Shown here: positions 458 to 64,000 of the stretch, piece by piece
Position numbering within the stretch: position 1 is the first letter of the stretch
Layout of the letters: the number at the start of each line of letters is the position of its first letter
Assembly (NCBI GenBank): GCA_905250025.1
Contig: CAJNOJ010000325.1
Location: 43,512-107,511 of the forward strand
Direction of reading: 5' to 3'
DNA: 64,000 bases
Origin: Adineta ricciae
Taxonomy: Eukaryota; Rotifera; Eurotatoria; Adinetida; Adinetidae
Translations under genes and position numbers: made by a program
Notes under the pieces: generated by a model
The model's database searches: none
Told to the model about the DNA's origin: nothing
The model's input: the letters and a program-made list of their open reading frames with translations, nothing else

Positions 458-685
458 GTTGTCGACACTGCACAGCCAATTCTGTTTAAAATGAAGTGAA
501 AACGTGCTTCTCGAAGAAAATGTCAATAGAAGCACCACCGAATATAACTTTAATGACTGTGATGTTTTTCATTCTACATTTCTCTTAGAGTAAATTTTCA
601 TTGTAAATAATCGAAAGAAGTTCAAGCAGCAAATCTACATGAGTGGCAAAAAGAAAGAAGATTAGTTATGCAAGGCACGTCTGTG

Positions 686-2784
686 CTAAACGCTAGTGTC
701 ATTGATGCTGTTGGACTGTTCTTTCGATTGCGAAACTCGAATCGAAGGAGCATTCACATACACAAAGCGTTGAACCACTGGTTTGCGTTTCTTTGCTCGT
801 TTTTCTCGCCGAATATGTTCTAGTTCTTCGCGTGTCGGATCAATACCAAAGCAATATTTCAATATATCCATAATAATAACAAATGCAGCCACAGTTATCA
901 TCGCAATAATCGCTATATATGATACAGACTTCGATACAGTCTTATAGATGACTATTTTCGTCGCAGTTATTTCACAATGACGGCCAGAGAAACTACTACT
1001 GAGACATTCGCATGAATAATTCAGTAACAACGGTCGACAAACACCTTTGTTCTGACAGGTTACATTAATACAATAGTTTATTTTCGTCTCACATCGCCTG
1101 CCCTGCCATCCTGGCGCGCATATACAAGTGGATGCACCGGTACAGGTGCCTAAAGTAAAAGAATAATTCATTTTTGACATTCAAAAGGAAATTGAAGTCG
1201 TCTAATACCATTATTGAAGCAAGTGCCATTTTTACATAGTCAATGATCGAATTGACATTGTGTTCCATTAAAACCACGTGGGCATAAACAGCTATACCAG
1301 GGGACGTCATTTATGTTATCGCAAGTACCATCATTCAGACACGGGTTCAGAATTGCACAGGAAGTGCTTGGCAATTTGCAGTCGACGCCAATGTTCGATG
1401 AATTTGGGCATGTAGGGGTGAAAAATAATGGTGTAACTAAATCACAGAACATACTATATGAAAATACTAGTAATCTTCAGGCTCTTTTTAAACTTATAGC
1501 GAGATATCTCGTTCTCATACTCAAGATATTATATGATACCCTCTCTTTATAGATCTTTCTGATAGAAGGAGACAAACAAACCTTGTTGAACGTCAGTTGC
1601 CAGTGAATAAGTAGTTGTGTAATCTAAGTTGGATGATTTTTCTATTACGTAAGCTATACTTCACCAATGATTTGAAACTTACCGCAAGACTTTGTCATGA
1701 ATACAAATTTCTGAATTCGATGATTATTTTGATCACTAACAAATATATTTCCATGATTATCAAAACTAAAAGTACTTGGACCTGATAGTTGATTAGCCAG
1801 TGAACCTCGTCCATCACATCCAATTATACATCGGTAACCACTTGATCCTGATCTAATTATACGACCATTACCAGATTCCAAGATGAATATATAGTTTTCA
1901 GCATCAAGTAAAATTCCCGTAGGAAAATAAAGTCTGATATTATTCTCTGTTGATCCTTGTCCGGCAATTGTCGTGGCATTAGACTGTTCTAATTGAAACC
2001 ATTGAACACGATGATTATAGCAATCTGCTACATATAAATCAAAATTCACGTCAACAAAGATTCCTTGAGGATAATCTAGCTGATTCGATGCAGTGCCATT
2101 AACACCTGTACCAGCTGCAATACTGATCGTCATTTTATTGTCATTCAACCATCTTTTAACTACCGTATGATTTTTCATCTGTGAACAATATAAAGTATCG
2201 TTGGTGTCGACAAAAAGGCCAAAACAAAGTGCGGTAGTGTTCAGCACAACAACAGAAGAATTTGTCCCTGATATCCATTTGTTGACTGCACGATATAAGT
2301 GGTTGTATGCAATATAAATGTCACCAGTATCGGTCACAAAGATAGACCATGAATTATAAACACTATTGGGAATGACTTGTGTGGGATCGATGCTATCGTT
2401 ATGCCAAATTAGAATTTGTTTGGTGTTTTGATTAACGGCATAGACCCGGTTGTTGACATCGACAAAAACGGCGAGAGGATTTTGCCCAGATATTGTCTGA
2501 TTAGCAAAGGTGATGCCCAATGTATTCCACAATGCTGTTGAACAAAAAATTGGTCGATTACACGAAAATGCTATAATACAAGTAATAGTAGAACATGTTC
2601 GATGCTGTTTAAAATATGAATATTTGAGAAACAGTTAGATGAGGCTTTAATCTGAAGCCTTTATCTATATTTCATCGCATTGAGCGAACAAAATAAATTT
2701 TTACATAGACTTACTTGGTTTTTGTCCGTCGACAACCGATGAAATAAACATTCCTATAATAACTGCATTAACCTTCCACCACAT
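686..2784 (-). pseudogene. NHL-repeat/EGF membrane protein, left copy, with premature stop
   Basis: Five exons parallel the intact right copy: 2715-2784 (signal peptide), 1683-2570 (NHL beta-propeller), 1578-1623 (short Thr-rich linker), 1209-1453 (EGF-like) and 686-1149 (EGF-like, one TM segment, basic cytoplasmic tail). Splice signals and phases are kept. In the fourth exon the CGA codon of the right copy reads TGA (1240-1242), a C-to-T change at a CpG. This removes the last EGF part, the TM helix and the tail, so the product would be a truncated, probably secreted propeller. It could be a recent pseudogene, an allele, or a sequencing error. Confidence 0.7.
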
Positions 2785-3294
2785 CTTACCGATAAAGTGA
2801 ATCTAAATAAACGATCAAGTCTATAGAATAGTTAGATATTCTTACTGCTGTAGTTGGTGCACGAGAAGTATAAAGAAAAGGATCGTGTTTGGCCTACTTC
2901 AATCATGGAAAAGAGAAATATGAGAAGTGAGTAAAAACGGCTAGATTATAAAAATAACCAACTGAACGTGATTTCAAGCACAGTAAGATGATATCAGCCG
3001 AAAAAGAACAGGATATCAATTTATAAATTCAATAAGAATTGACGTCAATAGTTATTCTATCTCCAGTCATGCTTATTTTATAAAAGCAAAACTTGACAGC
3101 TTTTGCTAGAATATGAAACATATTTTAATAGTTTGTTTATTTCCATCTGCAACCGGAACTCTGTGAATATTTATCGGGTAGACAGTGGTAAAGCTGTGCT
3201 CGTATAAAATGCTATACAAATGTAGTTAATTATTAGAAATCAAACTTTATTCCCTCTACTGAAAGGAGGGTATACAAAGAATTTGAGCTAAAGT

Positions 3295-8269: not shown

Positions 8270-10337
8270 TCAAAAAGATTCTGTTAGTGAATAGTATTTC
8301 TGACCTTGATTTAGAAATCGGAGATACACCGAAACTGGAAATGTTTGATGAAAACGTTTTTCCATCTCTTTATTCAAGCGATCGAACATCGACCAATAAT
8401 TTCCATGAGATAAGCATTGACTAATCAAGACTTGCAATTCTTCTCCGTTCATATACTCCGTTAGTTCGAGCATTGGATCTAATTTATTCTTCTTAAGAAA
8501 CTCCTGAACATCTCGATCAGACCATGACTCCATCGGCAGACTCTTATATGTATTTAAACCAGGACTGCTGCTATCTAATGGAACTGCTGTTGCTACACTT
8601 ATTCTAAAACATAGAAAAAGAATTCGTGTTGGATATGGAATGTGATTGCACACTCTTAAGCTCTATGGTTACTACTCACAACGTTTCCGGGTCAGTTTGG
8701 TGATTTCGTTGTATTTCATCAATTAACATATCCATTGCTCGAGAAAAAGAATCCGACTGAACAAAATCAATGCACATTTTTTCTGTTGATATGAACTTCA
8801 GCCAATTATCAAGTTCTACTTCGCCTACGATTAATAGAATCATTTCTTTTCTCCTGTCTTGTGCATATTCAGCTTGAATTCGACAGTTGCCACTTGTTTT
8901 GTACGCTTCAGATATACATATAAGCACGCATTTTGTCTGATCTATTGCTTGTGCCATCATTTCGCATGACACCCGAATCGTTGGATTTTCATCAAACCAA
9001 ACTTTCAACTGATAATCTTCAGTCAATTGTCGATAAATTTCATAAACTAAATCATAATCGTTTTGATTATAACTGATGATCACGTCATAGTCATTCGTTT
9101 CGGTATTCGTTTGTCTGAACTCCTCTTCCTTCTCTAATTTCCATAATAAACCGTCGGTTGTCTTTGTGATTGAATTTCGAATCTGAGTCATGAAGTTTTC
9201 GTTCGCTTTTAGCAAGTTCGCTGCATCTTTGTTGAATGACATGGTCAAAAGACATTCAAACCCTAATATTTCGAGTTGTTCAAGTTGAAAAGGTTTGTGA
9301 ATTAGTTTATCCAACAAATTCAATCCATCACTTGCAAGAAATTCATTTTTGAATTGATCTTGTTGTAAATATGCTGAAGAGAAACAAACAAAGTCTTTGA
9401 AGCATACATAAATTGCTCAAATTGTACCTTTTAACGCCACGATCAGATCGACAATATGTATTCCATAACGAGAATAATTCGCTTCGTCGACACTGCTAGC
9501 AAGAATTGTTTGAATAGTCTTCATCAATGTTGTGATCATCTCGATCGGTTTATGTGTGTCACTGTTCAGATCATGTTCGTTCACTATTAAGCCTACTGCG
9601 ACACACAGAGCGAGTTTAATTGCATCGTTCGCGTGAATATGTTGCAGAGATGTAAAGAGAATATGTTTGATATTTGGATCCTTTTTAATCATGAACAGAC
9701 AATCGTTGTCTGTTCGAATGAACATGATCAGTAGTTTGAGAATAATCCAAATAGCGAATGTTGGAGTGATGTCCACTGTGTTTTCTAATGTGTTTGATTG
9801 ATATTCCAAGATGATCGTGGCGAAATTATCTTGTTCTAGACGTCCGATAAGATCTGAATTGCTTACCAAAGGCAAAATTAACTTTAAAATCGTAAAATAT
9901 TCGTTTTTGTGTCGAAAGTTTTTGAATTGTAGTTCGCACTGTTGAATTTCCGAGGTTTTCTGCATTTCGATCATGTTCGTAACTAAGTACTTAATCACAA
10001 CTAACCGCTCACGTTCAATCAGATCTTCTCCATCACTTTGGTTGGGTAATAACTGTTCAAAGAGGAATTCGTATGTCGGTAACCAAAATTGACAAAATTT
10101 ATCTTGTTGTTCTTCGTGATAATAAGTTCGATCAGTTGCCATATGAAAAAGTCGAAATAATAAACTATTGTTCGTATCATCCATAGAAGTTTTATCCAAT
10201 TGTCTTAGAGCTTTGTCATAATGTTCCATAACCTCATCGGAAGTATAGTAATCGAAGATTTCGTTGTAGAGTTCAACATTGTCAGTTGGACCATCAGCTT
10301 CAGGTAGTTTTTCAATCAATGAAATTAATGCTGACAT
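8270..10337 (-). CDS. HEAT-like/TIR/SAM-like domain protein
   Basis: Three exons (9428-10337, 8680-9373, 8270-8603) join in phase to 645 residues. Residues 1 to about 390 are all-helical, HEAT/ARM-like. A TIR domain starts at YDVIISYNQ (residue 399) and runs to about 520, followed by a SAM-like helical region with WSDRDVQEFL. The order recalls SARM1-type NADases, but here the TIR precedes the SAM-like part. In many TIR domains the segment after the conserved Cys reads C-x-x-E, with the catalytic Glu; this protein has CRIQAEYA, so that position is Gln (Q470). NAD cleavage may be lost or altered, leaving a scaffold role. Probably cytosolic innate immune or stress signalling. Confidence 0.82.
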
Positions 10338-39016: not shown

Positions 39017-41626
39017 TCAGATGATTTCTTTCACCTCGTTAATGGAAAGTTTCAATAGTTCGAGATATTTATGATTTGACGGGAGAACTTTTTCGAAAAT
39101 TTGAAGCGCTCTCTCTAGACATTGAAGTGCTTTGGAATACTGAGCCACTATTTTGCACATTACGCCCATGTTCCAGTAACTGGCAGCTAAATCAGGATGT
39201 TCGAAAGGAAGACAATTTTTGAAAATATCGTTCGATTTTTCCAAGAACGCCAGTGCCTTGAAATATTCACCCATGTTGCAATGTAGCTGGCCAATGTTAT
39301 TGTACAAAGTGGCTAATGAAGGATGACTAGGAGGGAGGTATTGATCATATATTTTCTGTGCTTTTCCAAACGATTCAAGTGCTTTCAGGTGATCACCGGC
39401 AATGCTATGCAATTGCCCAATGTTGTTGCATACTGTAGCCAATAGTAGGTAGTCTGGTAAGACAGTTATTTCCAAAACCTGATATGCTTTTTGATAAAAT
39501 TCGAATGCTTTTGGATGATTCATCATTGCGAAATGTACCTGAGCAAGATTGTTGTAGCATGACGCAAATTCAGGATCATTCAAAGGAAGACTATCTTCCA
39601 GAATGTCACAAGCTTTTGCGCAAAATTCGAGTGCTTTCAAAAAGTCAAACATGCTGACATACACTGTACCAACGTTACTATATGAAGTGGCTAATGAACG
39701 ATAATTTAGTGGAATGGCTTTTTCTTTAATTTCGATCGATTTTGTATAAAATTCGATTGCTTTTAAATAGTTACCCATCTTACTATGAATTGCAGCAATA
39801 TTATTGTAAGAGAGAGCAAATTCAGGATGATTCGGCGGAAGAGATAATTTCCAAATTTTAAGCGCCTTCTCATAAAAGTCAAGTGCCTTCGTGTAGATAC
39901 CTGCTTTGCTAGCTATCTGACCGATGTTGTGGTAACATGAAGCCAACATGGGGTGGTTTGACGGCAAAGCCATTTCCCAGATTCGACGTGCCTCTTCAGA
40001 AAATTCAAACGCTTTTGAATACTGACCAATATTGTCATATACACAACTGATGTTATTGTATGATACAGCCAAATCAGGGTCACTCGCCGACAGGATTTTT
40101 CTTTTTAAGCTGATTGCTTTTTGATAGAATTCGAGTGCGTTCGTGTGATCAGACATTCTGTTGTAGGCTAGTCCGATACTATTGTAAATGTTAGCCAAAG
40201 CACGATCGTCTTTTTTCAAAGCGTTCAGCAGGATCTCTAAAGTTTTCTCATTGAATGAGATAGCTTCTTTGTACTGTCCTTGATGGATTCGTATCTCTCC
40301 GAGTTGGTAGTAGCAAGATGCTTTGCCATTCTCAGTCTTGGTCTTCTTGAGTAACTCGGTGAAAAGTATTTCAGCTTGAGTGAAATGGCCTACTCTAATC
40401 ATCAGTTTACCCATGCGGTGCCATCCTTTGCCGTCGATTTCTTTTTGCATTCGACCCATGAGTCCGGCAAGTTGCGGATCGTTGTCATCGGTCAATGTCA
40501 CTTGTACTTCCCACACAAGATTGTTTTTCATTGAGGGTTTTATTTCAATCACGCGAAAGACACTATGCATTGAGAAGAGAATTTCTTCTTCTGTTCTCAT
40601 AGCACTGTATGCGTCGATCGATGCAAATGGAGTAGTCGACTCCGAATTAACTGTCATAATAAAAAGCACGCTCACTATCCCATTGTCTTGGTCCAATATA
40701 CTTTCAGCAAATGCCCAAGCAACATCGTGATCTTTACTAGTGGATAAGAAACTGTTAAATGCGAGAAGGCCACCCTTAATATCGAGCAGATGTTGAAAAT
40801 CTTGTTGACTAAGTCCTTGGCCACGATAAACTGTCAGCCGATTCTCAAGTGCACTCGACTGTTCTTTATGAAGCGTTTCCAGTTGTTGATGAAGTTTTCG
40901 TATAAAAAAGCCCATTTTGATCATTGCTTCCGTATTGAATGTTCGCAGAGCACAATTGAGCATACCGTAGATAAAAGTACCGCTAGTATACCACCAAATC
41001 GACGATTGGTTATGATACTCATGTTGAAAACGATTCAACTGAGATTCAGAAACACCCTGTTGCCGACAATAGTTGATAAGATCTTTCAAAGAGTCTGTAA
41101 CATTGTCATCATTGAATTCTAATAGAATTTCTTTGAATATCATTGAGTACATGTAGGTTGGTTCCAATTGATCGAGATTGTGCTCACCTGATAATGGTGT
41201 TGTTTTCAGAGACTGCTTTGCAATGAAACTTATGGGTATCATGGCATAATCACATTGACGTGCCGATGCTCGAAGCGAGTCGCATAGGAGCTTGATTTCA
41301 GTAAAGGATCCGACAACTTTCGCCCATTCATTGCATGATGTTTTATTTTCATCAAAGATATAAATACGATACAGATGAGGAACATCGTGAATAAGTGGTA
41401 CTAGTTGTTTGCTCAACATTTCCGACACCATAAGGAACACTGTTCGATCGTCGATATCCGTAAGAAAGTCAACACATTCATCCGACTGCGTAAATATAGT
41501 GATTTCATTAACAACATTGCGCAGTTGTGCAAGTACGTCCTTCGAATTTTGATGAAATCGATCATCCAGCCAGAGAAGTAAGTAGTTTTGGATGCAAGAT
41601 CCTTGAAATCGGGTAGTGGATGACAT
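39017..41626 (-). CDS. ADP-ribosyltransferase with N-terminal sensor-like module and C-terminal TPRs
   Basis: A single exon encodes 869 residues from the ATG at 41624-41626; the frame stays open upstream but has no ATG. Residues about 40-120 form the N-terminal module. The ART domain has the R-S-E triad of arginine-specific transferases: R268 in TVYRGQG, STS at 295-297 (FNSFLSTS) and EEE at 346-348 (RTEEEILFS). From about residue 400 there are ten or so TPRs of kinesin-light-chain type (ALEFYQKAISLKRKIL, YNNIGQLH). The enzyme would transfer ADP-ribose from NAD to proteins selected by the TPRs; substrates are unknown. The 5' part is duplicated at the left end of the window. Confidence 0.87.
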   Translation of the reverse strand: MSSTTRFQGSCIQNYLLLWLDDRFHQNSKDVLAQLRNVVNEITIFTQSDECVDFLTDIDDRTVFLMVSEMLSKQLVPLIHDVPHLYRIYIFDENKTSCNEWAKVVGSFTEIKLLCDSLRASARQCDYAMIPISFIAKQSLKTTPLSGEHNLDQLEPTYMYSMIFKEILLEFNDDNVTDSLKDLINYCRQQGVSESQLNRFQHEYHNQSSIWWYTSGTFIYGMLNCALRTFNTEAMIKMGFFIRKLHQQLETLHKEQSSALENRLTVYRGQGLSQQDFQHLLDIKGGLLAFNSFLSTSKDHDVAWAFAESILDQDNGIVSVLFIMTVNSESTTPFASIDAYSAMRTEEEILFSMHSVFRVIEIKPSMKNNLVWEVQVTLTDDNDPQLAGLMGRMQKEIDGKGWHRMGKLMIRVGHFTQAEILFTELLKKTKTENGKASCYYQLGEIRIHQGQYKEAISFNEKTLEILLNALKKDDRALANIYNSIGLAYNRMSDHTNALEFYQKAISLKRKILSASDPDLAVSYNNISCVYDNIGQYSKAFEFSEEARRIWEMALPSNHPMLASCYHNIGQIASKAGIYTKALDFYEKALKIWKLSLPPNHPEFALSYNNIAAIHSKMGNYLKAIEFYTKSIEIKEKAIPLNYRSLATSYSNVGTVYVSMFDFLKALEFCAKACDILEDSLPLNDPEFASCYNNLAQVHFAMMNHPKAFEFYQKAYQVLEITVLPDYLLLATVCNNIGQLHSIAGDHLKALESFGKAQKIYDQYLPPSHPSLATLYNNIGQLHCNMGEYFKALAFLEKSNDIFKNCLPFEHPDLAASYWNMGVMCKIVAQYSKALQCLERALQIFEKVLPSNHKYLELLKLSINEVKEII

Positions 41627-44326
41627 GTTGTCGACGCTGCACAGCCAATTTTGTTTAAGATGAAGTGAAAACGTGCTTCTCGAAGAAAATGTCAATAGAA
41701 GCACCACCAAACATATCTTTAATGACTGTGATATTTTTCATTCTACGTTTCTCATAGAGCAAATTTTCATTGTAAATAATCGAAAGAAATTCAAGCAGCA
41801 AATCTACATGAGTGGCAAAAAGAAAGAAGGTTAGTTATGCAAGGCACGTCTGTGCTAAACGCGAGTGTCATTGATCCTGTTTGACTGTTCTTTCGGTTGT
41901 GAAACTCGAATCGAAGGAGCATTCACATACACAAAGCGTTGAACCACTGGTTTGCGTTTCTTTGCTCGTTTTTCTCGCCGAATACGTTCTAGTTCTTCGC
42001 GTGTCGGATCAATACCAAAGCAATATTTCAATATATCCATAATAATAACAAATGCAGCTACAGTTATCATCGCAAGAATCGCTATATATGATACAGACTT
42101 CGATACAGTCTTATAGATGACTATTTTCGTCGCAGTTATCTCACAATGACGACCAGAGAAACTACTACTGAGACATTCGCATGAATAATTCAGTAACAAC
42201 GGTCGACAAATACCATTGTTCTGACAGGTTACATTAATACAATAGTTTATTTTCGTCTCACATCGCCTGCCCTGCCATCCTGGCGCGCATATACAAGTGG
42301 ATGCACCGGCACAGGTGCCTAAAGTAAAAGAATAATTCATTTTTGACATTCAAAAGGAAATAGAAGTCGTCTAATACCATTATTGAAGCAAGTGCCATTT
42401 TTACATAGTCGATGATCGAATTGACATCGTGTTCCATTAAAACCAGGTGGGCATAAACAGCTATACCAGGGAACGTCATTTATGTTATCGCAAGTGCCGT
42501 CATTTAGACACGGGTTCAGAATTGCACAGGAAGTGCCTGGTAATTTGCAGTCGATGCCAATGTTCGATGAATTTGGACATGTAGGGGTGAAAAATAGTGG
42601 TGTAACTAAATCACAGAACATTCTATATGGAAATATTAGTAATCTTCAGGTTCCTTTTAAACTTATAGCGAGATATCGTATGATACCCTCTCTCTCTTTT
42701 TTTATAGATCTTTCCGATAGAAGGAGACAAACAAACCTTGTTGAACGTCAGTTGTCAGTGGATAAGTAGTTGTGTAATCTAAATTGGATGATTTTTCTAT
42801 TACGTAAGCTATACTCCACCAATGATTTGAAACTTACCGCAAGACTTTGTCATGAATACAAATTTCTGAATTCGATGATTATTTTGATCACTTACAAAAA
42901 TATTTCCATAATTATCAAAACTAAAAGTACTTGGACGTGATAGTTGATTAGCCAGGGAACCTGGCCCATCACATCCTATTATACATCGGTAACCATTTGG
43001 TCCTGTTCTAATTATACGACCATTACCAGGTTCCAAGATGAATATATAGTTTTCAGCATCAAGTAAAATTCCTGTAGGAAAATAAAGTGTGATATTATTC
43101 TCCGTTGATCCTTGTCCGGCAATTGTCGTGGCAGTAGACTGTCCTAGTGGAAACCATTGAATACGATGATTATAGCAATCTGCTACGTATAAATCAAAAT
43201 TCACGTCAACAAAGATTCCTTGAGGATAGTCTAGCTGATTCGGTGCACTGCCATTAACACCTGTACCAGCAACAATATTGATCGTCATCTTATCGTCATT
43301 CAACCATCTTTTAACTACCGTATGATTTTTCGTTTGTGAACAATATAAAGTATCGTTGGTGTCGACAAAAAGGCCAAAACAAAAAGCGGTAGTGTTCAGC
43401 ACAACAACAGAAGCATTTGTCCCTGATATCCATTTGTCGACTGCACGATATAAGTGGTTGTATGCAATGTAAATGTCACCAGTACCGGTCACAAAGATAG
43501 ACCATGAATTATAAACACTATTGGGAATGACTTGTGTGGGATCGATACTATCGTTATGCCAAATTAAAACTTGTTTGGTGTTTTGATTAACGACATAGAC
43601 CCAATTGTTGGCATCGACAAAAACGGCGAGAGGATTTTGCCCGGATATTGTCTGATTAGCAAAGGTGATGCCCAATGTATTCCACGATGCTGTTGAACAA
43701 AAAATTGGTCGATTACACGAAAATGCTATAATATAAGTAATAGTAGAACATGTTCAATGCTGTTTAAAATATGAGTATTTGAGAAACAGTTAGATAAGAC
43801 TTTAATCTGAAGTCTTTATCTAGATTTTATCGCATCGAGAGAACAAAATTAATTTTTACATAGACTTACTTGGTTTGTGTCCGTCGATAACCGATGAAAT
43901 AAACATCCCTATAATAACTGCATTAACTGTGCACCACATCTTACAGATAAAGTGAATCTAAATAAACGATCAGTCTACAGAATAGCTAGATATTCTTACT
44001 ACTGTAGTTGTTGCACGAGAAAGTATAAAGAAAAGGATCGTGTTTGGCCTACTTCAATCATGGAAAAGAGAAATATGAGAAGTGAGTGAAAACTGCTAGA
44101 TTATCAAAATAACCAACTGAACGTGATTTCAAACACAGTAAGATGATATCAGCAGAAAAAGAACAGGATATCAATTTATAAATTCAATAAGAATTGGCGT
44201 CAATAGTTATTCTATCTCCAGTCATGCTTATTTTATAAAAACAAAACTTGATAGCTTTTGCTAGAATGTGAAACATATTTTAATAGTTTGTTTATTTCCA
44301 TCGGCAACCGGGACTCTGTGAATATT
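41170..44326. repeat. Segmental duplication, right copy (direct repeat of 1-3172)
   Basis: This is the intact copy of the block described at the left edge. It covers the 5' part of the ART-TPR gene, the intergenic DNA and the whole NHL/EGF gene with upstream sequence. The match ends near 44326, where ATTTTCTTTTCGAAGAAAAT replaces the left copy's downstream sequence. The extent beyond 41170 into the ART-TPR gene cannot be tested. Confidence 0.95.
41855..43939 (-). CDS. NHL beta-propeller / EGF type I membrane protein, intact copy
   Basis: Five exons (43870-43939, 42838-43725, 42733-42778, 42378-42622, 41855-42318) close in phase to 570 residues. Exon 1 is a signal peptide (MWCTVNAVIIGMFISSVIDG). 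Exon 2 encodes NHL repeats (YPQGIFVDVNFDLYVADCYN, LYFPTGILLDAENYIF). Exon 3 is a Thr-rich linker; its donor was chosen because it alone keeps both gene copies in frame. EGF-like modules follow (NPCLNDGTCD; CQNNGIC; GWQGRRCE), then one TM helix (YIAILAMITVAAFVIIMDIL) and a basic tail. Likely an extracellular binding protein of the bdelloid-expanded NHL family; the ligand is unknown. Confidence 0.82.
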
Positions 44327-44825
44327 TTCTTTTCGAAGAAAATTCAATGTGAAAATCGAATGTAATAATGACGGCCTTCATAGGAACGTTTACGATCAAA
44401 CGCGAGTTAATGTATACCAGATATTGAAATCTTCCAATTCATCGATATAGTTCATGCATTTGTGCGATCGACGGAAACTGATTTAAATATGTATAACATT
44501 TGAAGCGGAACAAATTCAATTGAGGGTAAGTCAATAATATTCTTTGAATTAGACGTTCGCTCTCAACACAAATCCGAAGTTGGCGAAGACTTTCCACGAA
44601 AGCTTTCGTTGATCTTGAATAATTAAATTCTTGCTAATTTTCGATCGAGCATGTTTCTAAATAACGATATGCGTCCGTAAAGATCGATTCGTTGAGTTTT
44701 GTAGTGCAGCCTAGTAAACGCAAATGTTCCACTAGCAGATATTACCTAGGATTATCAAATGCATTCAGTTCATCGAATGATATCATTGCCCACCACTGGA
44801 TGCAAAATCTACAAAGGTGCAAAGA

Positions 44826-45169: not shown

Positions 45170-45498
45170 CTATCCTTCGAATTCTTAAACCTATCATCGA
45201 GTTAGATATTCATTTTAATAGTCAAAAAATCTTATCGACGATCCCATTCCGAGAATTGTCAGTCATCTACAGCACTATACTATGCGAGCAAAGTATGAAA
45301 TCAACTAAAACTGGTGGATGTTTTCTTTTCTTTGTACTGTCAACGATTGACTTAGGAGGTATAATTGATATTTTTACATATGGTACCATTTTCTTTCGGT
45401 TGAATCAATAAAAAACAAAGATTGTCGTGTACTTTTCTGTTAACTTTCGATTTTCAAAGGATTAGATCAAAGGATCCAGTTGAATATAAGGTCGAGAA

Positions 45499-47043
45499 AT
45501 GCTTTTCAGAAACATAAAATCGTGTTTCACAATGATTCGAGTAGAATCGATCTTTGTATGGCTGTGTTTGCTGGTTAGTGTACCCGTTTGGGGACAGAAT
45601 GCAATCGGTTTACGAGCTTCTGCAGCACTTCGCGGCATTCAAGTTGGAACTGCAGTCGTAGTTGATTACATACGAGAAAAAGCTGATTTCAACGAGTACG
45701 CTAACAAAATTCAGAGAGATGCTACAATAATCGTCACAGAGAATGATTTCAAACCGAAGCGTATCTGGTTAGGTGACGGCAAATACAATTGGAATAATAC
45801 TGATTTTCTTGTGGGTTCAACAGCTAATTCTACAGGCTGGGCTCAACAGAATCTGATGGCTGTACGAGGACATACTTTAATATGGCCCGATGATAGTTTC
45901 ACCCCTAAATGGTTATTAGATCAGGAGTCCTCAATAACATCGGAGAAAGCCAGATTACTGTTGACTGATTACATTCACGCTGTAGTTAGCCGTTATCGCG
46001 GCAAAATACTTGTATGGGATGTTGTCAATGAAGCACTCAACTCTACGAATACTTCCAATCCGTTGAACTTACGCGACAGCTTTTGGCTAAGAAAACTGGG
46101 CCCAGATTACCTTAAAATAGCTTTTTCAACCGCTCGCGCAGCTGATCCGAATGCAAAACTTTACTATAATGACTTTGGCATCGAAAGCACAGGATTGAAA
46201 ACGACGAGAACTATCGATCTCATCAAGTGGGTAAGATCACAAGGAGCAACCGTTCATGGTGTTGGTATGCAATGGCATATCGATTCGTCGAGATCAGTTA
46301 CACCTGGCGATGGACATTATCAAAGTGCTCAACAGTTTATCAACAATCAACTATACATATCAGTAACAGAATTGGATATATCGATTCCAACTGATGGTGG
46401 ATATTTGATAGATCGGTCAGATCTTTACAAACAAGCTGCTCTCTATCGAGCTGTTTTGAACTACGCCATTCATTTCTATCCCAAATGCGAAGCATTTCTC
46501 ACATGGGGTTTCACAGATCGCTACAGTTGGCTTCCCGATTATCATAAATATAAGAAAGGCGCTGGTTTACCATTGGATTGGATGTATCGGCCCAAACCCG
46601 CCTATTTAGAAATGCAAGAACTGATGACTCGTGTTGTTATTGATGGAGTCTACCGGCTTTCGCCTCAATTACAACCAGATAAATGTCTCGGTGCTGGTAT
46701 GAGTAATAATGTTCAACTTTATGGTGGCAGCTGTGATGATAACAATAAAAGATGGAATATAACTTGGCTCGGCGATGGAAGTTATCGGTTTTCACTACTG
46801 AGCAATCCAAATCTTGTTCTTGCTGGTCATAATGTATCAGCATCTCGTGGATATCTTCAAACAAATTATTGGACAAATTATATCAGTCAACGATGGGCGT
46901 TTTCTGCTAAAGGTAACAGTACATTTCGTATCGTACCTTATACTGCATGGTGGAAAGTCATGACTTTGGACGATACATCGGACGTCAGTGTTGTGAGTTA
47001 TGCGAGCGGTAAATCTCAACATTGGATCTTAACTAAAGTTTAA
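45499..47043 (+). CDS. GH10 endo-beta-1,4-xylanase with ricin-type lectin domain, secreted
   Basis: A single exon gives 514 residues; a second in-frame ATG at 45532 places the signal peptide (MIRVESIFVWLCLLVSVPVW) at the very start and may be the true start. GH10 hallmarks are complete: the acid/base Glu in VWDVVNEAL (E178), the nucleophile Glu in ISVTELDI (E291), plus RGHTLIWP and LTWGFTDRYSW. From about residue 385 a beta-trefoil (CBM13/ricin B-like) has QxW-type repeats such as SQRWAF and SQHWIL. It would cut xylan outside the cell, probably for feeding on plant or algal material. GH10 with CBM13 is commonest in bacteria and fungi; the lack of introns suggests horizontal origin. Confidence 0.88.
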   Translation: MLFRNIKSCFTMIRVESIFVWLCLLVSVPVWGQNAIGLRASAALRGIQVGTAVVVDYIREKADFNEYANKIQRDATIIVTENDFKPKRIWLGDGKYNWNNTDFLVGSTANSTGWAQQNLMAVRGHTLIWPDDSFTPKWLLDQESSITSEKARLLLTDYIHAVVSRYRGKILVWDVVNEALNSTNTSNPLNLRDSFWLRKLGPDYLKIAFSTARAADPNAKLYYNDFGIESTGLKTTRTIDLIKWVRSQGATVHGVGMQWHIDSSRSVTPGDGHYQSAQQFINNQLYISVTELDISIPTDGGYLIDRSDLYKQAALYRAVLNYAIHFYPKCEAFLTWGFTDRYSWLPDYHKYKKGAGLPLDWMYRPKPAYLEMQELMTRVVIDGVYRLSPQLQPDKCLGAGMSNNVQLYGGSCDDNNKRWNITWLGDGSYRFSLLSNPNLVLAGHNVSASRGYLQTNYWTNYISQRWAFSAKGNSTFRIVPYTAWWKVMTLDDTSDVSVVSYASGKSQHWILTKV

Positions 47044-47394: not shown

Positions 47395-48307
47395 TTATTT
47401 AACTGGAGTTTCAGCAGGTGCGTCAGCATTAGCAATAATTATATCCCCATGTTCTAGAATAAACAGAAAATCGCTTTTTATCGTATTATTTACAGAAGTG
47501 TGAAGTACTACTATCAACAATAGATCGATTCTTACCGATTTTTTCGCTTCTATGCGCTTGATCTTTGTCATGTTCATGAGCGTTCGATTTGCGACGAACA
47601 GTATGCGTATCATGAGTGATCGACTTCCGACGTGTTGGACTATGATTCGCCGGTTTTGCATGTGTATCCTGAGTGATAGACTTTCGACGCGTTGGACTGT
47701 GATTCGCCGTTGCACCATGTGTATCATGTGTAATTGATTTTCGCCGTGTTGGATTATTATCAGCTGGAGCATCTTTATGTATCTGATTCGTAACAGAATT
47801 ACGGCGTGTGGGACTATGATTCGCCGGTTTTGCATGCGTATCTTGAGTGATAGATTTTCGACGTGTTGGACTGTGGTTCGCAGTTGTACCATGTGTATCA
47901 TGCGTAATGGATTTTCGACGGGTCGGACTATGGTGAACAGGTTTTGCTTGTGTATTAGAATGATCGGGAACATTGTGATGAGTTTGATTGGTGAATGAGG
48001 ATTTACGGCGCGTCGGGCTGTGATGAACGGTCTTCCCATGTTTATGATCAGTATGTTCTTGAGATTTTGGGTGAGGATGATGGTCAGATACATTTGTAGT
48101 TTCGAGAGATTTTGTTATTTCCTGCACAGTCGTATTCGTATCTGCAGAGGACATATCTACAACATTATCTTGATCAGTATTGGGAAACATTGTAGGGTCT
48201 CTCTGGCTTTCCGTTGCTTCATGTGTTCGATCGTATTCATCGGAGTAATTCGATTCTTGATGTACTGCATCACTAGCTTCGTTTAACTGTGTTTCTTCAG
48301 AAGACAT
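47395..48307 (-). CDS. Disordered protein with seven SPTRRKS phospho-motif repeats
   Basis: Two exons (47536-48307, 47395-47453) join at phase 1 to 276 residues ending APAETPVK. The N-terminal 95 residues are acidic and Ser/Thr/His-rich. Then come seven repeats of about 19 residues with core HSPTRRKSITHDTH, alternating GTTAN and AKPAN spacers so that a two-repeat unit is itself duplicated. Each core has a proline-directed Ser-Pro and a basophilic R-R-x-S site. The protein has no Cys, Trp or hydrophobic core and no signal peptide. It is probably a disordered, heavily phosphorylated scaffold or stress protein; no family is recognised. Confidence 0.72.
47590..48030. repeat. In-gene tandem repeat, about 57-bp period with 114-bp higher-order unit
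   Basis: The plus strand shows recurring blocks such as TTCGACGTGTTGGACTGTGG and GATTTTCGACGGGTCGGACT, about 57-60 bp apart, corresponding to the SPTRRKS repeats. Adjacent pairs form a longer unit repeated with few changes, pointing to recent unequal exchange or slippage. Confidence 0.75.
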
Positions 48308-49698: not shown

Positions 49699-51284
49699 AG
49701 ATCGGTAAATCGTCTAAGAAAAGAAAATAGAAGATAGCAATCGCGTTGTTTTACACCACAATTTGAGACAAAACAACTAAACATTTGCGTACGATAAATA
49801 GTCGTCCATGTGGCGTTGAAAGTGAATCATCGAAAAAGTCTTTCTTTCTACCAGCAGGCGTCTGTTGAGAAAATTGCGTATATCTGCTCTTATGATGGAA
49901 AATAAACGATGGAAGAAGTATTTTTGTAGATTTCATATCGGATAGAAAAATCTCAAAGAAAGAATGAATCAACCCAAAGTCTGATTAATCCGGCAGTTGT
50001 TAACGGTAGATAAATTCTCAAGAAAAGAATGGAACTTGAAGAAAGTTGAATGATTAGTTTTCGGGCTATACGCCAACTATGATTATATTTTTGATAAATT
50101 AATTGTGAATCAAGAAGAATATCGAACGAACTCAATATATGCTCACTGTTTCTTCATTTATATAAAACGCTCCCGAACATCATAATTTGGTTCGATCGAT
50201 CTGTTGCCGGCATGGATATATAATATTCAGTACGGTGTACCAAATGAGAAGAGAGATGGGTAGTAAAACGATGGGCACACAATACATATAATGATTATTG
50301 ATTCAAAGGTTTTTTGTAAATCAAAGGATCGTCGCTATGGACACGATCCGTGTTCTTGATGCGAAAAGGAAATAATTGTTGAAAGTCTAGAAGAAGCAGA
50401 GAGACTTCCACGAGGGAATTAGATTGTCGTTATGAGAAAACTGCAGAGAAGGAAACTTAAACGATTATTCAATCAGGGAATTTCTTTACACAAGATTATG
50501 CCGTTTTCCATGTAATTTATGTAATTGAGTGAAATAATAAAATAAGATCAGACTGCGCGTAGTCGATGGAATTGCACAAGTAGTGAAAAAGACGAATTTG
50601 AACATTCGAGTAAGTGAATTATGAGTTGGTGTGAGAACGATATTTTCAGAGCAAAATGCCGTGTTGATGTCGACTGTCATTCTCTTCCTTATCATAGTAT
50701 AATAAAAAGAATTTAGAATGATGTTTTTGTCATATTTTATTTTCTTTGACGAATGAATGAAAGCAAAATTTTATATTAAGGTCGACCTCCGAAGAAGAAA
50801 ACAATAGGAATAGCTGGTCTTGAGATTATGAATGTTGAATAATAGAAATGCTAAATAAAAATGGATGAATATGGGAATTTGAATAGTGCGGTATTCAACA
50901 TCGATTCTTGTCACATAAATTGCGAGAATTCTCTGTAACAAACCGGCAACAGTGACCTCTTATGAATCCTGAGGTCAGTTCATACACGATTTAGCTGACT
51001 TTGCAAACGAGTTCTCGTAGGAATAACTCGAAGTGCTATATACTATTCATCTATGTCATTCAATACTTTTGCTATTCGTTTCTTTTTGTCTGCAAATCTC
51101 AGTGAACTTCGCAGAAAGTCGATTAAATGGAATTGATGCATTAAGAGAACATACAGCGATAAAGCAATGACGAATATGTGACGTCATTGAGAAAACATTT
51201 CATCATACTCGAAGAGTATTGCACAACGATATAATATTTAACTTACTGTTGATAAAGTATCAGTCAACACCCTTACAACTACCT
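49699..51284. other. Intergenic stretch, no gene recognised
   Basis: AT-rich DNA separating the minus-strand B-box gene from the plus-strand F-box gene. It should include both promoters. Several short frames were inspected; none has a domain or credible splicing. Confidence 0.45.
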
Positions 51285-52124
51285 ATGAGCGCTCCGGATT
51301 TACCGCCTGAAGTTTGGTCAAAAATTCTTCTACTTGCGAAACCGACTTACAAACAGCTGATGCAATTATCGACTGTTTCACAGAAGTTTCGTCGTTTGAT
51401 CGTGAACAAATGGTTTCTCAAGAAGTGTTTCGCTAAATATCCGATGCTCACTAAAGATCTTCTGTTACACATCGATTTTACTAACGTTATTGAAACTGAT
51501 CAGAATCCCTTAATAAATTCCATTGGTGACGTGTGTGGTTATCATGACTCTGTTGTGGAACATAAAAACGGCATAACGATTGAAACAGATGAACTATTTA
51601 ATCGTATTTTAACGTTTCAAACCACCAAGCCAATTTGGTTAATAAATGCGTTCAACTTTCAGAAATTCTCACTCAAAACATTCTCTATATCATTATGGTT
51701 TTTTTATTCTACAGATGGGATAATTGTTTTTCATTTTCAAAAAGCATACTGTTGGTGGTGCATTCAAATAACCATGAACATTGAAAGGCAAATGAAAATT
51801 AGAGTAATCTTGCCTAGTAAGATATGGGATATCGATGGTGGCCAACGAGATGAACACGTTTGGCATCACGTGGCCATTACTCATGGCGAAACTTCACTTC
51901 ACATTTATATAGACGGTCAGTTAATCAAAAAAATCGAACTACAATATTGGGAACCCATACGTGTTCATAATCTTCGAATAGGGAGTCATTTTTCCAGTGG
52001 CAGTGGCTTAGCAGATATCGCTGTGTGGGGAAGAAGATTGTTGCCAGAAATCAAGTCGATTTATCAACAGAAAACATCGATTAAGCAGGCGGACCTAATA
52101 CAAGGATTGTTAAATGGATTGTGA
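51285..52124 (+). CDS. F-box protein with LamG-like jelly-roll domain
   Basis: The start is taken at MSAPDLPPEVW, which opens the F-box (LPPEVWSKILLLAKPTYKQL and following helices); the upstream in-frame ATG at 51219 adds 22 hydrophobic residues of no clear use. The 279-residue product then has a concanavalin/LamG-like beta-sandwich with FSISLWFF, EHVWHHVAITHG, LHIYIDGQLI and NLRIGSHF. F-box proteins recruit substrates to SCF ubiquitin ligases; here the jelly-roll would be the substrate-binding part, possibly recognising glycans or protein surfaces. Single exon. Confidence 0.78.
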   Translation: MSAPDLPPEVWSKILLLAKPTYKQLMQLSTVSQKFRRLIVNKWFLKKCFAKYPMLTKDLLLHIDFTNVIETDQNPLINSIGDVCGYHDSVVEHKNGITIETDELFNRILTFQTTKPIWLINAFNFQKFSLKTFSISLWFFYSTDGIIVFHFQKAYCWWCIQITMNIERQMKIRVILPSKIWDIDGGQRDEHVWHHVAITHGETSLHIYIDGQLIKKIELQYWEPIRVHNLRIGSHFSSGSGLADIAVWGRRLLPEIKSIYQQKTSIKQADLIQGLLNGL

Positions 52125-54804: not shown

Positions 54805-57187
54805 TCATGTATAGTTGTATTCCTGGAAAGATACATATTCGATTTCAAATCGTTGAGGAAATTGATCTTCATCAATGTCGTCCCCAGCTCTACAATTAAA
54901 AACGTAGAGTGAAAGCAATTATTGTTTCAGACGATAACACGCGTTGGGATTGTATCCTTAGTCATTGTACTTACACATCTCCACCAACACCTAGATATAT
55001 TTCCAGATGGAATTCCTGGTCAAATGGCCTGGAAACAGAATCAGAGGAAAAAACGATTTTCAAGAAACTAGTAATAATGATCGATATCTGACGACTTACC
55101 AAAACTTCCAATCTCTATTATGTTTCTCAAATGCTAAGATTAATTTATCATTCCTATCTGTATCGTTTAATCGAACGAACATTTCGATTCGATCGGGTGT
55201 CCATTCCACTAAACACAAATACAATGCAGAATATTACTTGATGAGCTGGGAAAACTGATGGCGATGCTCTCTTACGTGAATAGGTTTTGAAATGATCCAT
55301 TCCGTCGGGAACTTTAGCTTCATCAATAAGAATGCTATTGCACAGCGGATTGTTCTTTTTGGTGCAAAGTGACGATCTAACGATCCCTGGAGTGCGTCCC
55401 AAGTGTGACATTACGTTTATTTCGCCGTTCTCTGGCCACATCGCATTGCCATAAGTACGCTTGACGGGAAGCTAAAACGAAACAGATCAGGCGATCGCAT
55501 TTGACTACTTATTTTGTGTGTCGAATACAAACCAAAAGAAATGAAGACCATGTTCCCTTCGCAGGAGGTAATCTGGCACGGATCTGAAGTTATGCAGAAG
55601 AACAAGAAAATCTTTGTTGAACAGCTATAACGGTTCATACCTCAAGTCGGCCATACCGGAATGCTTTTCTACTCCTTAATCGAGCGGATGTAAATTTATA
55701 GCCTTTATATTGTTGTTGTTCTTTTCGTGCTTCGATGACCAAACGGCCATTCTCACATCTGGCGTTTTCGTCAACAATTCCTGTATGGTACTGCTTTTGA
55801 TGAGTACCCCATCCATTTTCTCCAGTGCCTTCAAGAAACTCCCATTTGGTTAGATCGATTTTACTACTTTGAAAGTTATCGTAGAATATAAGCGCGCCAT
55901 AACCTATTCGAGTGCTTTGCACTACTTCTGATTCTCCTACAGAATCGAAGAGAAGATCGAAACCACGAAGATCAACATGTTGACAATTGCCTACCCACTT
56001 CCATTTCCCGCATAACGTCCGAGAATATTTTCTCAATCGGTTGAAAACGTTGTTGGTTTAGAAGCTCACCCACGCTGAAGGCTAATTGTAAGTATTTCAG
56101 CTGATCGTTTGAATCAGTTTTCTTTGGGCGCTTCGTTGTAGTTTGATGTTCATTACCTGTGGAAAGAAAAAGAGAACAGAGCAAATATGATAAAACTGTA
56201 TTACGAAAGATGAAAGAACTCACTTAACTCAAACGGAACCAGACTTTGAAGATCTTTCTGCGTAGCTTTTATGATGATCAACTTGTCGAACCTTTAAAAA
56301 GTAGCACACCATAGAACTCGAGTAATATAGAAGTCTACTGATCATGTTCGATCATACTTCATGATTCCATTACGATCGACTGTATTCGAGTTTATCGGGT
56401 AAAGTATACTTCGGTCGAAGTGACCAATCCCTTTTTGATATTCCGTTTCATGTATTCCCAAGGGACAAGGGTGGATATAGTGATTTCCATTTACTTCAAT
56501 CGTTGTTAATGTAACACAGATGAAGTAGGGTCTATTGGCATTGAAATACTCTTCTGACATCTAGACACGAACGAACGGTGTATAACTAAATGCTAATAGG
56601 AAGCATGAGCAATCGTATTTACTTTGATAGCTGGGCAATCGTATATTTCTCCATTTAGTTCTTTGTGTACTCCACGAATGAAACGCACAGTTCTGCCTTT
56701 GGACTCAGATTCGGTATATGATTGTTGCGTCGGTGACGGTTGAGCAAAAATTTCAAGGCCTGGCGTTGTCGCAAAGTCTTGAGAGAAAGACAAAAGCTGA
56801 GTTAGATGAGACAGATCGATTTTAATATAGGAAAAAAGAGAAGAAAAACAACTAGACATACTGAAATCATTGATCGGATATGAACGCTTTTGAGATGATT
56901 CCATCTGATGTAGGTCGTTCATCAATTGTTCTGGATCCAGTTCTGGGACATGATCAAAGGTAACTGTCAACAAGACAAGGTTAATTCAGCTAAGTTTAGT
57001 ACAATTTATAAATGGAAAGCAATCTTACTCAGTTCATTTAAGTTGCCTCCGCTTACGTCCATCGAAGCAGCTGAAGGCTCAGCTTCGAAGCGTTCTTTCT
57101 CGTAATCTATGAAGCAGAGAGAATCACTTTTTTTGACTGAAAATCATTTCAACAGCTTAGTAATATCGTACCGAAATCAAAATTCAT
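54805..57187 (-). CDS. Rel/NF-kB-like DNA-binding region fused to degenerate GH16 glucanase domain
   Basis: Thirteen exons close in phase to 524 residues: 57172-57187, 57029-57106, 56862-56963, 56623-56777, 56358-56560, 56224-56291, 55995-56156, 55641-55936, 55533-55583, 55276-55471, 55100-55208, 54975-55028, 54805-54889. Residues about 70-275 follow the Rel homology order: PGLEIFAQP, a basic loop, YIHPCPLGIHE (HPHxLVG-like), FDKLIIIKATQKDLQ (NLGIQCVKKKD-like) and LKYLQLAFSV. From 275 (GALIFYDNFQSSKIDLTKW) a GH16 fold runs to the end (RLEIRARLPPAKGTW, YSLEWTPDRIEMFV). The GH16 ExDxxE motif reads EINVMS (394-399), so two key residues are lost, as in glucan-recognition proteins. There is no signal peptide and no separate ATG for the GH16 part. 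I infer a possible intracellular glucan-sensing transcription factor. Confidence 0.68.
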
Positions 57188-59639: not shown

Positions 59640-59925
59640 TTCACTGCAAAAAATCTGCGATGAGAATAAGCCCTTCAAAAGGATTTATTAAACTGATCAA
59701 TTCTTTGAGATACGTTTTTTCCGTTTATTAGCATCATAAATCTTTTGATATACCGTTAAACGTTTATCAGATTCCAACGTATAAAATACTTTTTTGAGTA
59801 GATCACGAGAGCAGGTATATCCAAAGGTTTATGATGCTAATAAAGGGAAGACATATCTTAAAGAATTGGCCAGTTCGATAAATCGTTGCGGAGGGTTTAT
59901 TATTCACCACCGATTTTTTTCAGTG
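59640..59925. mobile_element. Foldback / MITE-like element with arms of about 115 bp
   Basis: The left arm contains TTTATTAGCATCATAAATCT and the right arm TTTATGATGCTAATAAAGGG, its near reverse complement. Extending outward, CAATTCTTTGAGATACG pairs with the reverse complement of CATATCTTAAAGAATTG, and the similarity reaches CACTGCAAAAAATC against GATTTTTTTCAGTG. The unpaired centre is about 55 bp. The transcript or single strand could form a long imperfect hairpin. No coding capacity. Confidence 0.65.
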
Positions 59926-61715: not shown

Positions 61716-61982
61716 CTCATTGGATTTGAGCTGTTTTTTCTATTTTAATAAAGGCTATAAAAGCATTGTTTTGTCATCAATTTTTACACCATTTACTTTA
61801 TTTAGATCAAATCATTTGTCAGAATTAATACTCCTGTTAACAAGACAAACGTCATATTATTATCGAAAATCTGGAATAGTACTCAGAGAAGAACAAGGGC
61901 ACGAATACAATCGTAGAGCGAAGTAATTAATTAAGTCAAGTCAAATTTATTCCAAACTGAACATATCTATTTAGATCTTACG

Positions 61983-64000
61983 ATGGGACTTGCTAACAGA
62001 AAACAAGTATTTCCTGAACCTAATTGTAAAAAAGATGAAGAGATTATAGCTATTGCTGCCCTAAGAGAACAAAGAGTTGCGACTAATAATGGAGTTGTAT
62101 CACTTTTCTGGATTGGAAGCGTACCGTTATCTTACACTGAGAAAACTTTGGAAAATGAACTTAACGTCACTACTGCTTCAGTGACATTTTCTTCTATCAA
62201 TGATGCACTTCAAACAATTGAAACGTCGACAAACGAAACAGTGTTCATTATTATAAATTCTGTTTTTGACAAAATTACCAATGACTTTATCAAAGAACTG
62301 AATAAACGACACCAAGTGGCGTATATTTACGTAATTGATTCAGATGGCAATCGCGCTAAACAGGAGTGTGATATGCTGAATAGTGCCGGTAAGATTATCC
62401 ATTTTCTCAAATTTGGAAAAGAAATGGTGAACCATATTGGTAAAAATGTTCGCAATGCGATGAAAATGGCCATCGACTTCAATATGTTCGACTCCAAATC
62501 GCAAATGACGACACGTGATCTCACGAGAAATTCGGCTGCGTTCTTATGGTTTCAAATTCTGCTCAGCATCTTGAAAGATTTTGGTCAGGATAGTCATGCT
62601 CGAACAGAAATGATCAATATGTGCCGTGCGTATTGTGAGAAAAATGATCCAAGCGAGTTGGCGAATATTGAAAGATATCGACGAAATGACGAGAAAAAGA
62701 CGGCTATCTATTGGTACACATTTGAATCATTTCTTTACAAACTTTTAAACAAGGCGTTGAGGAACGAGGATGTTCACTCATTATGTCGATTTGGATGCTT
62801 TATTGTCGAGTTGTCCAATGAAATCGACGATCTACATAGAAAGCGGGAAACGAGCGAACCTAAATCACCATTGCAGCTGTTTCGCGGTCAGGTGATTACT
62901 AAGCGTGAGCATGAACAGATATTAAAAAGTAAGGATAAACTGATCTCAACGAATAGTTTCTTCTCTACTTCGCCCGATCAAGACAAAGCTATTGAATTCG
63001 TGGAGGGAAATTCGCACCGAGCCGGTCTTATGCCAATTTTATTCAAAATTACTGCTCCGCCAAACTTGAAGCAAACCAAATTCGCCGATGTTCGGCATAT
63101 AAGTGCACATCCCGAGGAAGAAGAAGTTCTTTTCAATTTAGGTGCCGTTTTCAAGATAACTGGCGTCGAAGAGAAATCAGGATCTAACTCATACGTCTTA
63201 GTGCGCATGTCAGCGACCGATGAAGGTTATGAAAATGTGGAAAAATACATCGGAATATCGAAAGATGACTTAGAAAGCGATGACAAAAGAATCATGTTTG
63301 GTCGACTGCTAATTGACATGGGACAGTACAAAAGATCCAAAGATTATTACGATGAGTATATTGATGTGATGAAGAATATCTGGAGAGATGACGCACTCCA
63401 GTACGCACCATTGTATCATAACCAAGGAAGAGCACATGCTTGTATGGGGGAATTTGATAAAGCCTTTATCCTTATAAAACGCGCGCTCGAAATTCGTCAG
63501 AAACACTTGAAGTTCGATGACCCGTTGATAGCTCATACGTTGAACAGTTTAGGCGTTATGGAAGGACAGATGGGTCGTTACACCGACGCCAAAGCCAAAT
63601 TCAACGAGGCTCTCAGCATTTTTCAACAGAACCAAACGAGCGGCTCCAGTCGTATAGCAAGCCTTCAAATAGCGATCACAAACAGTAATATTGGCTGGGT
63701 CGAATATCTGCAAGGCAATTATAATATTTCAGAGCGCCATCATAAAGAAGCTCTCAAAATTCGAGAGAACCTCTTTCCCGAAGATCATCCTTTGATTGCC
63801 GACAATCTTAATGCACTCGCTGCTGTGTACCATGCTCGAGGTAAATATCTAGATGCAGACAAAAATTATGAAAAAGCACTGAGCATTCGCGACAAAGCAT
63901 TGCCTTCTCATCATCCGTCCATTGCCAACAGTTACCAAGCGCTTGGCAGTGTCAAGTTGGAGAACGGAGACTATGCACAAGCATTGAAATATTATGAGAA
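61983..64000 (+). CDS. ADP-ribosyltransferase-TPR protein, second paralogue (runs off right edge)
   Basis: An open frame of 672 codons starts at the ATG at 61983 and continues past the window end. Residues about 45-170 form the N-terminal module (NETVFIIINSVFDKI, then QVAYIYVIDSDGN), equivalent to that of the minus-strand ART-TPR gene. The ART triad is present: Arg in LFRGQVI, STS in TNSFFSTS, and EEE in HPEEEEVLFNLG. TPRs follow (YHNQGRAHACMGEFDKAF, LGVMEGQMGRYTDA, LNALAAVYHARGKYLDA). It is clearly diverged from the other copy, so it belongs to the same family but not to the recent duplication. Confidence 0.85.
   Translation, partial: MGLANRKQVFPEPNCKKDEEIIAIAALREQRVATNNGVVSLFWIGSVPLSYTEKTLENELNVTTASVTFSSINDALQTIETSTNETVFIIINSVFDKITNDFIKELNKRHQVAYIYVIDSDGNRAKQECDMLNSAGKIIHFLKFGKEMVNHIGKNVRNAMKMAIDFNMFDSKSQMTTRDLTRNSAAFLWFQILLSILKDFGQDSHARTEMINMCRAYCEKNDPSELANIERYRRNDEKKTAIYWYTFESFLYKLLNKALRNEDVHSLCRFGCFIVELSNEIDDLHRKRETSEPKSPLQLFRGQVITKREHEQILKSKDKLISTNSFFSTSPDQDKAIEFVEGNSHRAGLMPILFKITAPPNLKQTKFADVRHISAHPEEEEVLFNLGAVFKITGVEEKSGSNSYVLVRMSATDEGYENVEKYIGISKDDLESDDKRIMFGRLLIDMGQYKRSKDYYDEYIDVMKNIWRDDALQYAPLYHNQGRAHACMGEFDKAFILIKRALEIRQKHLKFDDPLIAHTLNSLGVMEGQMGRYTDAKAKFNEALSIFQQNQTSGSSRIASLQIAITNSNIGWVEYLQGNYNISERHHKEALKIRENLFPEDHPLIADNLNALAAVYHARGKYLDADKNYEKALSIRDKALPSHHPSIANSYQALGSVKLENGDYAQALKYYE

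Follow-up and report, generated by a model that had tools for sequence, protein, structure and literature searches.

A candidate one-gene fusion of a Rel-like domain and a degenerate GH16 fold in a bdelloid rotifer

Gene structure and genomic setting

The window analysed here, a 64-kb stretch of DNA (64,000 nucleotides) from Adineta ricciae, contains on its minus strand, at 57187-54805, a gene of 13 exons with a predicted product of 524 amino acids and 60.8 kDa. The structure was obtained by an independent three-frame translation with GT-AG joining, and it has the same extent, 13 exons, and 524 residues as the phase-keeping gene proposed in the first-pass annotation. All 12 introns are of the GT-AG type and measure 57-85 bp, and the frame is open through 524 codons to a TGA that ends at 54805.

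Exon 1 (57172..57187; aa 1-5), with the ATG at 57187 and donor GTACGATA, contributes 16 coding bases only and is the least certain exon. Exon 2 (57029..57106; aa 6-31) encodes an acidic N-terminal region without a family match, and exon 3 (56862..56963; aa 32-65) continues this region. The part that resembles the Rel homology domain (RHD-N) begins at P71 (PGLEIFAQPSP) in exon 4 (56623..56777; aa 66-117), where the DNA-contact loop is replaced. It extends through exon 5 (56358..56560; aa 118-184), with the segments IHP and GIMKF, and exon 6 (56224..56291; aa 185-207), in which FDKLIIIKATQKDLQ is aligned with FNNLGIQCVKKKDVE, and ends in exon 7 (55995..56156; aa 208-261) with LKYLQLAFSV...FSDVM; exon 7 also carries KRPKK at residues 216-220. 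Intron 7 (55937..55994; 58 bp), with donor GTAGGCAA, joins the two halves. Exon 8 (55641..55936; aa 262-360) is the fusion exon, in which the linker GESEVVQSTRIGYG precedes GH16 from ALIFYDNF onward (residue 276, base 55895). Introns 8-12 fall inside the GH16 half. Exon 9 (55533..55583; aa 361-377) has Leu for a cleft Trp (ULam111 W102), exon 10 (55276..55471; aa 378-442) encodes the catalytic region GEINVMSHLG with the replacements D>N, E>S, and H>C, and exons 11 (55100..55208; aa 443-478; EWTPDRIEMFV), 12 (54975..55028; aa 479-496; WPFDQEFHLEIYLGVGGD), and 13 (54805..54889; aa 497-524 and the stop) complete the domain, the C-terminus being FPQRFEIEYVSF.

The junction had been placed inside a single exon, and exon 8 (55936-55641) carries it in our own parse as well. 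The donor of intron 7 looks weaker by eye than GTAAG and GTATG donors, and retention of the intron would end the frame at codon 269. The unspliced GH16 frame of exon 8 has no in-frame ATG upstream as far as the stop at 56060; Met256 and Met259 in exon 7 may be internal starts. A search as far as 59000 for a first exon with a signal-peptide-like start, such as a missed start of the GH16 part would need, yielded six candidates. None of these has an intron of ≤ 150 bp, the strongest requiring one of 822 bp, and a separate secreted GH16 gene was rejected on these grounds. The N-terminus of the predicted protein is acidic, with 15 D/E against 4 K/R in the first 70 residues, and thus unlike a signal peptide, in line with the earlier remark that none is present. 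No second RHD or GH16 copy is seen in the 64-kb window, tblastn matches outside the gene having E values of 1.8 or worse. A fusion of the Rel-like and GH16 halves in one gene is regarded as credible.

Pfam matches at E ≤ 0.01, some of them below the cut-off, were obtained for 16 of the 20 larger ORFs scanned in the window. The families include TIR, MATH, NHL, FG-GAP, F-box with laminin-G, PAN, ART with TPR, and GH10, a content in keeping with a bdelloid rotifer; no RNA families or tRNAs were found in the window. A TIR_2 domain (E 5e-17) lies in an ORF at 8679-9416 on the minus strand. The segments 1-3172 and 41170-44327, which share their orientation and are 94.6% identical, form a segmental duplication of 3.2 kb that carries an NHL-repeat ORF and an ORF that appears EGF-like by eye. 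Two ORFs, at 39020-41737 (minus strand) and 61935-63998 (plus strand), combine an ADP-ribosyltransferase domain with TPR repeats, and the second of these reaches the window end. An uninterrupted ORF of 517 aa at 45490-47040 (plus strand) matches GH10 (E 5e-73), with a weak, sub-threshold ricin-B lectin tail, and is possibly another acquired enzyme gene. Two overlapping frames on the minus strand, of 239 and 274 aa, remain open through a 57-bp tandem array of 5.7 copies at 47603-47932. At 59642-59925, on the upstream side of the fusion gene and about 2.5 kb from it, ~284 bp match their own reverse complement at 73.7%, possibly as a mobile-element remnant.

The GH16 half

A match to Pfam PF00722 covers residues 276-524 (E 5.9e-12; 45.8 bits against a cut-off of 22). 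With the same half, phmmer against PDB retrieves 34 sequences at E ≤ 0.001, of which the laminarinase 3iln is the best (E 4.4e-52, 41% identity), and the GH16 assignment made before is thereby upheld. Pfam scans of the raw unspliced frames give neither a GH16 nor an RHD match. A scan of prokaryote genomes with the GH16 half gives at least 578 relatives, and the top ones among the matches listed belong to Hymenobacter and Ignavibacteria (loci L001 and L002). In viral contigs 22 loci match, the best-scoring at 35% identity; these were left out of the conservation count and served only as background ORFs. A bacterial origin of the GH16 half appears likely from the comparison; similarity to bacteria alone is no proof of transfer, the comparison set having been prokaryotic.

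Conservation was counted in an alignment with 80 bacterial rows, the best 80 of the at least 578 relatives and from prokaryote genomes only. Of 55 columns conserved at ≥ 90%, the window protein keeps 37 and loses 18. By leave-one-out counting, the median bacterial row retains 53 of 54 columns, and even the lowest one retains 47 of 53 (89%). The lost columns are W4F, N31T, E33Q, Y37H, G93A, P98S, A99S, W101L, M102L, D121N, I122V, E124S, H138C, H164K, D180R, N215Y, A217G, and D239E. The protein thus resembles the bacterial laminarinases (3iln, L001, and L002) over the whole domain at ~40% identity. In contrast to them, it has the Asp, the acid/base Glu, the His, and a cleft Trp replaced, has five introns in the GH16 part, shows no signal peptide, and carries this part behind a Rel-like domain.

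The position of the ExDxxE motif reads EINVMS. The nucleophile Glu is kept, Asp is replaced by Asn and the acid/base Glu by Ser, and His is also replaced by Cys, which confirms the catalytically degenerate motif noted in the first-pass annotation. As the catalytic motif is lacking, the half is classed as a GH16-fold homologue and not as a GH16 enzyme. An active glucanase was ruled out as the main reading by the replaced residues, and the fold is probably no longer active in cutting sugars.

Of 12 cleft residues named for the laminarinase ULam111 (PMC5595797), five (G37, R71, W98, W113, and E118) are kept and seven (N33, N38, W102, D120, E123, H137, and F212) are lost, where N33 aligns to a gap and most GH16 enzymes have Trp at the F212 position. 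A concentration of the losses in the cleft was considered and rejected, because named residues account for 5 of the 18 lost and 5 of the 37 kept columns (one-sided Fisher p 0.18). Random erosion is therefore compatible with this test.

In ZgLamA the contacts of subsites -2/-3 include Arg-213 and Trp-264, and Rv0315, which is without contacts of this type, fails to bind laminarin (both reported in PMC4606783). The kept R72 and W114 may be the equivalents of Arg-213 and Trp-264, so that residual sugar binding by the GH16 half is possible; with 5 of 12 cleft residues kept and 7 lost, weak binding of this kind may or may not persist. Rv0315 resembles the window protein in having a GH16 fold without detectable glucanase activity, according to the same paper, the inactivity of the window protein being a prediction. 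The two differ in that Rv0315 keeps both catalytic Glu and is without the subsite -2/-3 residues, whereas the window protein has lost the acid/base Glu and kept the presumed equivalents of those residues.

The GH16 half contains no stops. When it was changed by neutral simulation to 18 of 55 altered columns, a mean of 5.3 stops accumulated and 0.5% of 1000 runs were stop-free, in a model that takes every change to be neutral, leaves insertions and deletions aside, and draws on no homologous pair. The comparison favours maintained coding of the predicted frame.

The Rel-like half

The fold of RHD-N is Ig-like. The claim of an RHD at residues 60-275 stands in part: targeted comparisons support an RHD-N at residues ~71-256, while plain matches in Pfam and by phmmer are absent. 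The Pfam profile PF00554 (RHD_DNA_bind) gives no match to residues 60-275 at an E limit of 1, nor at E 10 with the filters on, which drop weak matches. Taken plainly, this is one of the outcomes that the first-pass annotation had named as refuting it. The single Pfam family listed for the first half is Zn_ribbon_GRF_2 (E 0.08-0.2, far below its cut-off), no glucan-binding family in Pfam matches this half, and a phmmer search of PDB with it returns no match with an E value of 1 or less. Residues 1-70 are without a family match, and the NF-kB-like N-terminus described before is not borne out.

The targeted comparisons employ a reference profile of five RHDs (Gambif1/Dorsal, c-Rel, p65, p50, and RelB). 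On the full 171-column RHD-N profile the window protein scores 7.0, whereas 40,000 shuffles average -60.2 and attain 0.3 at best, none of them reaching the score; the same is true of 300 column-permuted profiles. Neither 398 real ORF segments from 102 loci nor 75 window segments include one that reaches the score with either profile, the first profile of this test spanning 138 columns and that of the 40,000 shuffles 171. A leave-one-out version of the test gives known RHDs scores of 394-651, and the similarity is therefore very remote. The z value is 5.8 for the five-row profile, while the highest value is 3.3 when 450 of 573 unrelated segments are used as profiles. With single-sequence profiles, z is 6.6 for Gambif1, 4.5 for c-Rel, 2.7 for RelB, and 1.7 for both p65 and p50; a bacterial GH16 profile at three offsets gives 0.3-1.3.

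The alignment with Gambif1 (Dorsal class, PDB 1bvo) by BLASTP runs colinearly along positions 1-171 of 175, with 48 of 198 positions identical (24%; E 0.001 for one comparison). The two sequences share the opening P..EI..QP, LAF close to VRLCF, and an SD shortly before the end. In contrast to Gambif1, the window protein has the RFRYxCE loop replaced, is less basic, shows no dimerisation domain, and has no Pfam match.

Local alignments give weaker results than end-to-end ones. The local score against Gambif1 is reached by 3 of 3000 shuffles, the end-to-end score by none of 3000. Of 3000 shuffles, 16 reach the local five-row profile score and 45 the six-row score; of 398 real segments, 1 and 4 do so, respectively. 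Unfiltered HMMER with the five-RHD profile gives 4-5 bits and sets P71 at RHD position 1. Of 1000 shuffled first halves and 500 shuffled GH16 halves, 1500 in all, 2 score higher than residues 60-275 and 3 higher than the 275-residue half, and the full protein obtains 2.3 bits only. The register of HMMER from P71 recurs in hhalign over 72 columns with a score that none of 150 shuffles reaches, at a probability of only 4%. Taken by itself, the second half of RHD-N gives no significant score. Since the family was chosen by a reader's eye, these significances are to be discounted, and with this discount it still appears quite probable that residues ~71-256 represent an RHD-N.

Of 30 columns invariant in six RHDs, one of them Relish in what we take to be its sequence, the window protein keeps 11. 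In p65 numbering it has R33S, F34Y, R35E, Y36S, E39K, and K123Q, with R41 kept; from the NF-kB literature we take R33, R35, Y36, E39, K123, and R41 to be DNA-contact residues. The DNA-recognition loop RxRYxCE is replaced, and the pI of the domain is 6.7, compared with 8.3-8.9 in the five reference domains. A dimerisation (IPT/TIG) domain in residues 60-285 scores above neither shuffles nor real segments, so that GESEVVQSTRIGYG, previously read as the beginning of such a domain, finds no backing in that role. A scan of 1989 raw window frames for this domain gives a best E of 0.8, at a low power that misses the gene's own exons too. With contacts replaced, no dimerisation domain seen, and a less basic domain, classical kB-type DNA binding by the Rel-like half appears improbable. 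A 'DNA-binding region' in the functional sense is thus hard to maintain, and a classical NF-kB transcription factor was rejected as a main reading. KRPKK at 216-220 may serve as a nuclear signal.

Interpretation and known systems

Judged from the translation, both halves are without the residues that define their usual activities. The explanation that we tentatively prefer, at a probability somewhat short of even, is that the gene encodes an intracellular chimera of Rel-like and pseudo-GH16 domains that acts through binding surfaces. Its order would be an acidic tail, a very divergent Dorsal-like RHD-N, and a bacterial-type GH16 laminarinase fold in the place of the dimerisation domain. The Rel-type module would contact partners of the Rel or another signalling pathway, as a putative decoy or adaptor. 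The pseudo-GH16 jelly roll would serve as a protein-interaction module, or as a weak carbohydrate-binding one through the kept part of the cleft (R72, W97, W114, and E119). We infer that such a chimera neither binds kB-type DNA nor cuts glucan.

The chimera is seen in the genomic sequence of one locus, and this, with the weak-looking donor of intron 7, the stop at codon 269 on readthrough, and the hallmark residues lost in both halves, would also agree with a non-functional fusion, be it two transcripts, a GH16-only protein from Met256 or Met259, an assembly join, or a drifting chimera. As the recount finds no significant concentration of GH16 losses in the cleft, less weight falls on the preferred explanation and more on this one. 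Such a fusion is nevertheless considered rather unlikely, in view of the exon-8 frame that has no ATG back to 56060 when unspliced, the missing signal-peptide exon with a short intron, and the 524 codons without a stop, the GH16 half of which stays stop-free in few simulation runs. That the pseudo-GH16 is preceded by an unrelated or lineage-specific domain, and not by a Rel domain, is improbable. The absent Pfam RHD and PDB matches, the 11 of 30 invariant columns, the weaker local tests, and a family picked by eye, where selection among many families inflates significance, would agree with this. Against it stand the colinear match to Gambif1 along nearly the whole RHD-N, z values of the five-row profile and Gambif1 beyond those of all 450 unrelated profiles, and a full-length score that no shuffle reaches.

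The first-pass annotation had conceived of a direct glucan-sensing transcription factor, in which the GH16 fold would bind beta-glucan and control DNA binding by the Rel part. It could draw on the acidic N-terminus, the nuclear-signal-like KRPKK, and the kept R72, W97, W114, and E119 of the glucan platform. Furthermore, bdelloids faced with a fungal pathogen upregulate acquired putative glucanase genes whose best matches are bacterial (PMC11258130), and PMC6272582 reports that some glucanase-like domains of arthropod beta-GRPs bind soluble laminarin. The idea is weakened on both the DNA side and the glucan side and is held to be highly improbable, given that R33, R35, Y36, and E39 are replaced and K123 is lost in a less basic domain, that no dimerisation domain is seen, that 7 of 12 named cleft residues are lost, and that PMC6272582 ascribes glucan recognition in beta-GRPs to their N-terminal Ig-like domain. 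A broader proposal, that a Rel gene exchanged its dimerisation domain for an acquired bacterial glucanase fold, which lost catalysis while keeping a portion of its sugar platform, and became an intracellular carbohydrate-responsive immune regulator, is considered very unlikely.

The arthropod beta-GRP/GNBP proteins offer the preferred chimera a partial parallel. Their glucanase-like domain follows an Ig-like-fold domain and, according to PMC6272582, shows no hydrolysis of beta-1,3-glucan and no binding to glucan in insoluble form; the loss of hydrolysis in the window protein is predicted. In contrast, GNBP3, as described in that paper, circulates in the haemolymph and binds glucan by its N-terminal domain, whereas the first domain of the window protein is RHD-N-like, and the protein has an acidic N-terminus and shows no sign of secretion.

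No paper was found on a Rel homology domain with glycoside hydrolase family 16, or on PF00554 with PF00722, and nothing relevant on bdelloid or rotifer Rel genes among the matches listed, in the literature searched, which lacks most subscription journals; the fusion is undescribed in that literature. Horizontally acquired genes are numerous in bdelloids, and the fusion, if true, would mean that acquired DNA has entered a host regulatory protein instead of staying a separate enzyme. Under the broader, very unlikely proposal it would also supply a carbohydrate-responsive immune regulator in an animal group whose surveyed members are without Toll-like receptors (PMC8609888).

Elsewhere in the window, an ORF at 51171-52121 (plus strand) combines an F-box with a concanavalin-A-like Laminin_G_3 domain. 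A lectin-like fold in an intracellular adaptor would be a possible parallel to the Rel-like/GH16 fusion.
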